Assembly (NCBI GenBank): GCA_023957315.1
Contig: JAMLHE010000014.1
Coordinates: 1 to 64,000, forward strand
DNA length: 64,000 bases
From: Candidatus Kapaibacterium sp.
GTDB taxonomy: Bacteria; Bacteroidota; Ignavibacteria; Kapaibacteriales; UBA2268
Reading direction: 5' to 3'
The translations under genes and the position numbers were made by a program. This document shows positions 44,778 to 56,958 of the stretch, piece after piece (position 1 is the first letter of the stretch; the number at the start of each line of letters is the position of its first letter). Below the pieces are notes generated by a model. That model had not been told where the DNA came from. It saw only the letters and a list, made by a program, of their open reading frames with translations, and ran no database searches.

Positions 44778-44931
44778 AAACATAGCCCACGAATTTATTC
44801 GTGGGTCACAAAATGCAAATTAAATCATAAACCATTTTAATGGTTGGAGAACATATAATTTGTAAATGGATAAATCCATTTATCAAATGTCCGCAAAACT
44901 TTCTCCACGGTTAAAACCGTGGGCTATGTTT
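44778..44931 (+). mobile_element. MITE-like, transposase-less derivative of the IS200-like element
   Basis: 154 bp bounded by AAACATAGCCCACG (44778-44791) and its exact reverse complement CGTGGGCTATGTTT (44918-44931). It has, in order, the same three hairpins as the full element at 45165-45762: CCCACGAATTTATTCGTGGG, AACCATTTTAATGGTT, ATGGATAAATCCAT and CCACGGTTAAAACCGTGG, but the transposase gene is missing between the second and third. Confidence 0.65.
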
Positions 44932-44952
44932 CTTTTGCTCGTGTTTTTTTTT

Positions 44953-45115
44953 CACGATTAAAACCGTTGGCTATGTTTGTCATTCTCGTGTTTTTTTTTC
45001 ACGATTAAAACCGTTGGCTATGTTTGTCATTCTCGTGTTTTTTTTTCCCCCCACGGTTGAAACCGTGGGCTATGTTTGTCATTGTCGTTTTTTTTTTACG
45101 GTTTAAATATTGTTT
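44953..45115. repeat. Array of REP-like hairpins with T-runs
   Basis: Three further units of the right-end hairpin (CACGATTAAAACCGTTGG at 44953-44970 and 45000-45017, and CCACGGTTGAAACCGTGG at 45051-45068), each followed by GCTATGTTTGTCATT and an 8-9 base T-run. The first two are tandem with a 47-bp period. No coding sequence in 44721-45248. Confidence 0.8.
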
Positions 45116-45164
45116 ATATCATCACAATAAAAAATGATTATCCAATTCATATAACATATCAAAA

Positions 45165-45762
45165 AAACATAGCCCACGAATTTATTCGTGGGTCACAAAA
45201 TGCCAATGAAATGATAAACCATTTTAATGGTTTGAAAAGGGAAATGTTATGCCACATTCATTCAATAAAATATGGATACATTCAATATGGTCAACCAAAG
45301 ATAGGATGCCCCTAATTGATTTGAGTTTTGAAAATAATTTGTACCAATATATTTCTGAACAACTACTCGAACAAACGTGTCCCGTAAGAATTATCAACGG
45401 AACGTCCGACCATATCCATTGTTTGTTTTTATTAAACCCACAGAAATCAATTGTGGATGTTATCAAACAAATTAAAGGGAGCAGTTCACATTTTGTAAAT
45501 CAAAACAATTTTATTAAAGAGAAATTCGTATGGCAAACAGGTTATGCAGCCTATTCGATTTCGGAGTCAGTTGTGGAAAAGGTTTTCCAATACATTCAAA
45601 ATCAAAAACAACACCATAAAAAGATAACATTTCAGCAAGAATTCGACGATTTTTTGAAAATATATGGGTTTATGAATAAAACGACATGAGCAATGAAAAT
45701 GGATAAATCCATTTATCAAATGTTCAAAAATCGTCCCCACGGTTAAACCGTGTGCTATGTTT
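45165..45762 (+). mobile_element. IS200-like / REP-associated transposon, full element
   Basis: Left end AAACATAGCCCACG with hairpin CCCACGAATTTATTCGTGGG (45173-45192), a second hairpin AAACCATTTTAATGGTTT (45216-45233), the HUH transposase gene, then ATGGATAAATCCAT (45698-45712) and the right-end hairpin ending CGTGTGCTATGTTT (45749-45762, one mismatch to the inverted left end). Subterminal hairpins instead of classical inverted repeats fit IS200/REP elements. Confidence 0.75.
45249..45689 (+). CDS. IS200-like HUH transposase (REP-associated tyrosine transposase)
   Basis: 146 residues, Y1 transposase family. The HUH motif is His55-Ile-His57 (SDHIHCLF) and the nucleophile is Tyr115 (QYIQNQKQHH). 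WSTKDRMPLI and VWQTGYAAYSISES are typical blocks. The protein cuts and joins single-stranded DNA at hairpin ends. The SD AAAAGGGA lies 8 bases before the ATG, directly behind the AAACCATT..AATGGTTT hairpin, which could expose or hide it. It is intact and full length for the family. Confidence 0.9.
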   Translation: MPHSFNKIWIHSIWSTKDRMPLIDLSFENNLYQYISEQLLEQTCPVRIINGTSDHIHCLFLLNPQKSIVDVIKQIKGSSSHFVNQNNFIKEKFVWQTGYAAYSISESVVEKVFQYIQNQKQHHKKITFQQEFDDFLKIYGFMNKTT

Positions 45763-45905
45763 TCGTTCATTTTTTCCCCACGGTTAAAACCGTGGGCTAT
45801 GTTTGTCTTTCTCGTGTTTCTTTTCCCACGGTTGAAACCGTGGGCTATGTTTATTTTTCTTGTGGTTTCTTTGTTTCCCCACCGTAGAAATCGTGGGCTA
45901 TGTAA
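45730..45905. repeat. REP-like hairpin array right of the transposase
   Basis: Four right-end-type hairpins: CCCACGGTTAAACCGTG (45736-45752), CCCACGGTTAAAACCGTGGG (45778-45795), CCCACGGTTGAAACCGTGGG (45825-45843) and a decayed CCACCGTAGAAATCGTGG (45880-45897), each followed by GCTATG. They end a few bases before the stop of the ABC transporter gene. No gene between 45690 and 45911. Confidence 0.75.
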
Positions 45906-56328: not shown

Positions 56329-56343
56329 TTTTGTCTCTACCTA

Positions 56344-56931
56344 AAACATAGCCCATGAATTTATTCGTGGGTTATTAAGGACAATGACAATCCACCCCGT
56401 CTGCTGGCGCATCCACCCCTCAAGAGGGGAATTAAAGCATTGATATTTCGCATCTTCCTCGAGGTGTGTATTATGTTCGTATTGGTAGTCGGAAGCAAAT
56501 GTTTGTGAAAGTCTGAACTATGATTTATTTGTCTGAACTATGATTTGTGTGAATTGAATGATTAACCTTCCGAAGGTTCGAAACCTTCGGAAGGTTTCGT
56601 CTATTGTAGCACCGGACGGGACGAAAGGATAATACTTTGATTCTTTCCCCGCATTTCATACGGGGTTATTCATATTTAACCACTTCGTGGTTTGTTGAAT
56701 ATGTCGCGATTTCTTCCCCGCATTTCATACGGGGCTATTCATATTTAACCACTTCGTGGTTTTCGATAATAAAATCTTGTCCATCCTGAAATCTTGATAA
56801 TCTTGTTCAAGATGAAAAGGACAGAACGCTGTTCTGTCCCTACGACTTAAATTCCTATCTTGAGGGGTGTCTGCGAAGCAGACGGGGTGGATTGTTTTGA
56901 TTTTCACACGAATAAATTCATTGGCTATGTT
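56344..56931. repeat. Nested palindrome island
   Basis: Outer arms are REP left-end-like: AAACATAGCCCATG with hairpin (56344-56371) and the inverted copy CATTGGCTATGTTT (56905-56931). Inside lies a 46-bp inverted repeat with AATCCACCCCGTCTGC (56388-56433 and 56850-56894), a doubled GTCTGAACTATGATTT (56511-56526, 56531-56546), AACCTTCCGAAGGTT palindromes (56563-56597), a twofold 47-bp unit with CCCCGCATTTCATACGGGG and AACCACTTCGTGGTT (56647-56693, 56716-56762), and GGACAGAACG/CTGTTCTGTCC (56819-56839). No protein gene fits in 56274-56958. Confidence 0.8.
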
Positions 56932-56958
56932 TTCTTGGAGGGTCGGGTGAGGTGCTTT

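Follow-up and report, generated by a model that had tools for sequence, protein, structure and literature searches.

In the DNA analysed here, a stretch of 64,000 nucleotides from Candidatus Kapaibacterium sp. (contig JAMLHE010000014.1, positions 1 to 64,000; hereafter the window), a short element with an intact transposase gene lies beside a relative of 154 bp that lacks the gene. The two elements are built of the same tails and hairpins (H1 to H4), both are followed by additional hairpins of the right-end type, and solitary copies of the end occur about 11 kb away. The features are as follows.

44778..44931, + strand: gene-less element, 154 bp, tail-H1-H2-H3-H4-tail, from the alignment to the full element; folds as a single long hairpin
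44830..44845, + strand: H2 of the gene-less element, hairpin
44864..44881, + strand: H3 of the gene-less element, hairpin
44953..44978, - strand: extra right-end hairpin 1 after the gene-less element
45000..45025, - strand: extra right-end hairpin 2 after the gene-less element
45050..45077, - strand: extra right-end hairpin 3 after the gene-less element
45165..45762, + strand: full element, 598 bp, of REPIN-like build, its transposase gene enclosed by hairpins 2 and 3, in the order also found in G021, L188 and L189 (see below)
45165..45172, + strand: left tail of the full element, AAACATAG, with the ATAG foot; conservation among the genome copies ends 8 nt outside the hairpin
45173..45192, + strand: H1 of the full element, CCCACGAATTTATTCGTGGG, hairpin with paired changes between species
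45217..45232, + strand: H2 of the full element, AACCATTTTAATGGTT, hairpin
45249..45689, + strand: Y1/HUH transposase gene, intact, 146 aa, with H55-I-H57 and Y115---Q119--H122H123; putative subclass 1.2 by motif
45697..45714, + strand: H3 of the full element, AAATGGATAAATCCATTT, hairpin
45736..45762, + strand: H4 and right tail of the full element, CTATGTTT, hairpin plus tail
45777..45804, - strand: extra right-end hairpin 1 after the full element
45825..45852, - strand: extra right-end hairpin 2 after the full element
45879..45903, - strand: extra right-end hairpin 3 after the full element, matched by a degenerate counterpart at the orthologous position of sister species G001
56344..56372, + strand: solo REP of the window family, from the end-motif matches in the window
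56902..56934, - strand: second solo REP of the window family, degenerate, from the same matches

The product of the gene matches the Pfam profile Y1_Tnp (PF01797, E=5.6e-25), contains the motifs DHIH, WQ and YIQNQKQHH, and scores 65.7 bits with the NCBIfam IS200 model (above the cut-off of 55) and 30.8 bits with the REP_Tyr_transpos model (below the cut-off of 80). Its catalytic residues match those of the ISHp608 transposase in the alignment, and by this sequence match the predicted fold and catalytic residues are fixed. The Y1_Tnp domain, the HUH motif and the catalytic tyrosine place the protein in the TnpA-Y1 (HUH) superfamily. The preliminary description, which had been made from the sequence alone, spoke of an HUH transposon beside a gene-less relative, and the PF01797 match together with the shared ends and hairpins bears this out.

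Within the superfamily, subclass 1.2 was described by Quentin et al. (2018) as occurring mostly in Cyanobacteria and Bacteroidetes, with a median length of 148 aa and a low copy number. No REP sequences were reported for it, and IS200 end structures were said to be generally absent, where the word “generally” leaves room for exceptions (PMC6006769). Subclasses 2.1 and 2.3 were likewise reported to lack REPs. The window protein has the motifs of this subclass (Y---Q--HH, WQ and DH[IV]H) and nearly its length (146 vs. about 148 aa), the assignment being based on motif and length and not on the published HMM. Note that Y---Q--HH is present in all 88 rows of the tree described below, partly by construction of the search pattern. 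Subclass 1.1, in contrast, is marked by Y[IV]ENQ, W[TS] and several near-identical copies, on average 4.8 at 99.4% identity (PMC6006769), whereas the window protein has WQ, --HH and one copy. RAYTs, i.e., the TnpA-REP proteins of class 2, have Y---NP where the window protein has Y---Q, and its score with REP_Tyr_transpos is too low for them. By its motifs, the predicted enzyme fits neither the classical IS200 transposases of subclass 1.1 nor the classical RAYTs.

Then, could the locus be an ordinary IS200/IS605 insertion sequence of subclass 1.1 with a PATE- or MITE-like deletion derivative? The score with the IS200 model and the position of the gene between the ends would agree with that, and a study of haloarchaea reportedly describes gene-less derivatives of the IS200/IS605 family. 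However, Y---Q--HH and WQ fit subclass 1.2 and not 1.1, there is a single full copy against the subclass-1.1 average given above, and the inverted repeats at the ends have an ATAG foot on just one side. This explanation is weakened further by relatives with GTAG-footed doublets (see below), and we regard it as unlikely.

The gene-less element has the same ends and the same order of four hairpins as the full element, and its ends, AAACATAGCCCACG and CGTGGGCTATGTTT, are exact reverse complements, just as had been described with correct coordinates. The right end of the full element (45749-45762, CGTGTGCTATGTTT) has one mismatch. With ends in common with an autonomous element and no coding capacity, the 154-bp element is MITE-like. 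It had also been presented as a direct picture of a MITE arising by internal deletion. The direction of that proposal, loss of the gene, is upheld by homologues elsewhere that carry the gene between H2 and H3, but the direct picture is not, because the left 74 bp of the pair are 93% identical (7% divergence) and the right ~70 bp only 86% (~14% divergence), and the gene-less form predates the species.

Behind each element stand three further right-end hairpins, which extend the field to 45903. These right-end hairpins form short tandem arrays in steps of 47-53 bp (44952-45077 and 45777-45903). Similar arrays adjoin two other Y1 genes of the genome, on contigs C25 and C5, and are also found in Arcicella, in steps of 74 bp. 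The two arrays of the window bear on the origin of the pair, which might have arisen by tandem duplication of a segment from the left end through the right end and its three hairpins, followed by loss of the gene in one copy and without transposition. In keeping with such a duplication, three hairpins follow both elements with spacings of 47/47/52 and 42/48/53, the arrays align at 156 of 190 positions, and H3 of the window pair is common to these two elements only. On the other hand, unit-by-unit comparison revealed no preference for in-register pairing, units within an array being equally alike. We consider the duplication quite possible, though short of likely; it concerns the origin of the pair only and not the system. 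The pair need not be a parent and its fresh offspring, as tandem duplication and subsequent loss also fits.

The ends are not confined to this field. The genome-wide search proposed in the preliminary description, for which an absence of other copies would have been fatal, gave 87 copies of the 14-mer AAACATAGCCCACG with no more than one mismatch in the 3.55-Mb genome, vs. 2 for the reversed control. In the window, the 12-nt end motif has 14 matches vs. 2.1 expected, and none of 100 shuffles reached as many; chance is ruled out as the source of this abundance. A search without the foot found 39 hairpins of the form CCCACGNNTNNANNCGTGGG in the genome, and in 37 of them ATAG stands on just one side, as read directly for 32 and from exact ATAG end-motif matches for the other 5. 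Across the genome copies, conservation outside the hairpin comprises AAACATAG only and ends after 8 nt, so that extended flanks beyond the tail (TCTGTCC and TTGACAA) were rejected as a general feature. A one-sided foot on a short palindrome is the anatomy of a REP.

Apart from this family, other repeats are present. The window region 56340-56935 is a mixed repeat field, where the two solo REPs of the window family occur with two hairpins of the type found at the C25 Y1 gene (56676 and 56745). In the genome-wide contexts, a second palindrome, ACAGAACAGCGTTCTGTCC, immediately adjoins many of the ACATAG REPs, and the repeats CCACCCCGTCTGCT... and CCACACCTCGGAGGTGTG are nested with ACATAG REPs into mosaics of several palindrome families.

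Counting the copies with and without the transposase, as had also been suggested, yields one full element and at least five gene-less units in the genome, namely the 154-bp element of the window, C2:261324, C15:55191, C1:7531 and C1:7361-7484, the last with a decayed left tail. The other four have a common left end, which consists of the tail, H1, about 24 nt and H2 (AACCATTTTAATGGTT). In the four units measured, a spacer of 18-19 nt separates H2 from H3, followed by H4 and the tail. The gene-less units fold as one long hairpin. Inverted footed hairpins, a long-hairpin fold and a genomic population are among the hallmarks of a REPIN.

The genome contains three Y1 genes only, each inside a field of its own hairpin type. 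The gene on C14 goes with the hairpin family of the window, that on C25 with ATAACCACTTCGTGGT (22 matches), and that on C5 with TATTTAAGCCCTTCGGGCTT (23 matches), which is inverted on opposite sides of the gene. The other two proteins are 27-36% identical to the window transposase.

The age of the system can be read from related genomes. At the orthologous locus of the sister species G001, with both flanks matching, the left end is retained together with codons 1-38 of the gene at 97%, followed by unrelated sequence and then a decayed last hairpin, which is a wrecked full element. Therefore, a full element was there before the two species split. In G002, a DNA-methylase module resembling a restriction-modification system occupies the site between the flanks of the window element (G002:C12:71000-76500), and this site is an exchange hotspot. 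The window transposase has no homologue in G002, which nevertheless has 59 exact end copies, so the hairpins persist without the enzyme. The gene-less unit on C2 is 97% identical in G002, where the right-side similarity ends 3 nt past the element end, and remnants of a unit are found at the C1 locus in all three species. Since some of the gene-less units occupy shared loci in sister species, the miniature form is older than these species and has been vertically inherited.

In G021, which belongs to another genus, a transposase of 61% identity with one stop is located between the same H1 and H2 and an H3 and H4 of similar design. As the gene lies between H2 and H3 in G021 as well as in Bacteroidota relatives, this arrangement is the older state in this lineage and the gene-less units are best read as losses; for the window pair, too, gene loss is the better direction. 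The empty-site check called for in the preliminary description was made in G001 and G002 at the loci orthologous to four of the elements. Every one of these sites, which bear on a target-site duplication as well, was rearranged or contained a partial copy, and no clean empty site was found. Consequently, we infer the movement of the elements.

Is the association of enzyme and hairpins specific to this lineage? Here, 80 subclass-1.2 relatives with their flanks, all from one scan, were explored. Over these 80 loci, the hairpin density is 4.07/kb within 200 bp of the gene vs. 0.37/kb far away, that is, about 11-fold, and the density of locally repeated hairpins is 3.05/kb near the gene vs. 0.02-0.05/kb. 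About half of the 80 relatives are without two locally repeated hairpins within 700 bp. A left and a right hairpin have their stem in common at 18 of 72 loci, whereas 1000 permuted pairings gave a mean of 0.44 and at most 4, and none of 304 control ORFs from the same contigs shows such a match. Neither the loop bases nor the foot were used in hairpin selection. Among loops of two nucleotides, TC or TT prevails upstream (28 of 32) and GA or AA downstream (31 of 41), as befits an inverted pair. The foot trinucleotide seen most often is TAG, upstream as well as downstream, and pairs that share a stem often have an NTAG foot.

These figures also bear on whether the hairpins are regulatory RNA or terminator structures with no tie to the transposase. 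They do lie between genes, two-ended hairpins can serve as terminators, and in G002 they persist without the enzyme. However, stems matched between left and right occur at transposase loci and at none of the control genes, the foot and the loops are polar, and each transposase has one cognate hairpin type, all of which makes this reading very improbable.

Chitinophagales (L188) and Salinimicrobium (L189) clearly show the order foot-H1-H2-gene-H3-H4-foot, which, with variations of the foot, also occurs in loci of Ignavibacteriota and Cloacimonadota. Across species, pairing is 100% in H1, where both partners of five pairs have changed, and 94% in H2, where this applies to three pairs, a covariation that is supporting only, because the hairpins were chosen as good palindromes, which favours pairing. 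A clean population is that of a Sediminibacterium MAG (G067, locus L208), with about 15 near-identical inverted doublets of CAACGGATTTTAATCCGTTG at a spacing of 110-115 bp, with GTAG...CTAC feet and two nested inner hairpins; note that MAG assemblies may misplace repeats. Three of the doublets surround the single subclass-1.2 gene; here a REPIN population and a subclass-1.2 enzyme are found side by side. In the tree, which comprises 88 proteins, hairpin-field loci occur in both main halves but are clustered (18 changes vs. 26.6 with shuffled labels). Subclass 1.2 is spread over Bacteroidota, Ignavibacteriota, Acidobacteriota, Planctomycetota and others. The reported absence of REPs and end hairpins does not hold for the window enzyme and many relatives, and in the literature searched, outside of which subscription journals lie, no report of REP-associated subclass-1.2 proteins was found. 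We conclude that many subclass-1.2 genes are REPIN/REP systems and that in the window such a system carries its gene within the REPIN.

Based on the anatomy, the genome-wide population, the order found in another genus and in Bacteroidota relatives, the covariation of the ends, the polarity of foot and loops and the G067 doublets, the locus is probably a REPIN-like single-strand mobile system, with an association of enzyme and hairpins that many other subclass-1.2 genes share. Its unit may be written as ATAG-H1-H2 ... H3-H4-CTAT, with the footed hairpins (REPs) as outer ends in inverted orientation. As single-stranded DNA, the whole unit can fold into one long hairpin, whose apex between H2 and H3 is formed by the subclass-1.2 TnpA-Y1 gene in the full element and by the 18-19-nt spacer in the gene-less ones. 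A long-hairpin fold and transposition of REP doublets have been proposed for REPINs (PMC3116915), and TnpA-REP requires the foot for recognition and is probably guided by it in cutting (PMC8266576). By analogy, a TnpA dimer most likely binds the footed hairpins on single-stranded DNA and would cut near the tails through Tyr115, the expected nucleophile, with the ATAG foot as a guide, and it may move or copy full and gene-less units alike. Binding, cutting, mobility and the service of this enzyme to these hairpins are what we infer. The gene-less units would have originated by gene loss and then formed a long-lived population of their own, most copies of which would later decay to single hairpins.

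Compared with REPIN/RAYT systems (Bertels and Rainey, 2011; PMC3116915), the window system also has two inverted footed hairpins in one long-hairpin unit, and units that populate the genome with a Y1 transposase among them. Unlike those systems, the window gene is inside the unit, the motif is Y---Q--HH and not the Y---NP of class-2 RAYTs, and the foot differs, being ATAG here and GTAG in G067. The window enzyme resembles subclass 1.2 as published (PMC6006769) in Y---Q--HH, WQ, DHIH, its 146 aa, low copy number and Bacteroidota-type hosts, but the window gene and many relatives are flanked by footed hairpins. IS200/IS605 elements (IS608, ISDra2) and their PATE derivatives likewise have a Y1 HUH transposase, hairpin ends and gene-less copies, whereas in the window system there is one full copy, each of the inverted, footed ends contains two nested hairpins, and solo hairpins form a large population. 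The double-foot REPs and REPtrons of subclass 2.4 also place REPs around a TnpA gene and are found in Bacteroidetes, but their proteins are of class 2, with about 194 aa and Y---NP (PMC6006769).

Whether subclass 1.2 constitutes a second REP-mobilising lineage that is independent of the class-2 RAYTs, including a form with the gene inside the REPIN as a possible intermediate from IS200 to a domesticated REP transposase, seems to us evenly balanced. REP sequences rank with the most common repeats of bacteria, and it is the class-2 RAYTs that are credited with moving them. Should subclass 1.2 move REPs as well, this lifestyle would have arisen more than once in the superfamily, and a candidate mobiliser would be at hand for many of the hairpin repeats found in Bacteroidota and neighbours. 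Elements such as the present one, whose genome has units of one design both with and without the gene, would then offer a direct test of the passage from insertion sequence to REP system.

In addition, some observations concern the other Y1 genes. The 9.7-kb contig C25 is 98.8-99.7% identical to part of C2 (compared over 108000-121000) outside one swap (2.7 kb vs. 1.7 kb), which takes in the C25 Y1 gene and may be strain variation in the assembly or a duplication. Being a larger haplotype swap, it was rejected as an empty site for that gene. A cluster of C5-type hairpins, three on one strand and one on the other, is located at C8:137857-138129 without a transposase. In G021, a second Y1-like gene adjoins the homologous element (G021:C14:40500-46000) and is flanked and interrupted by ATTCATCCGATGACTC(T/C)AAGTCATCGGATGAAT palindromes; the same palindrome is an orphan repeat beside several REPs of the window genome, among whose three Y1 genes there is no such enzyme.
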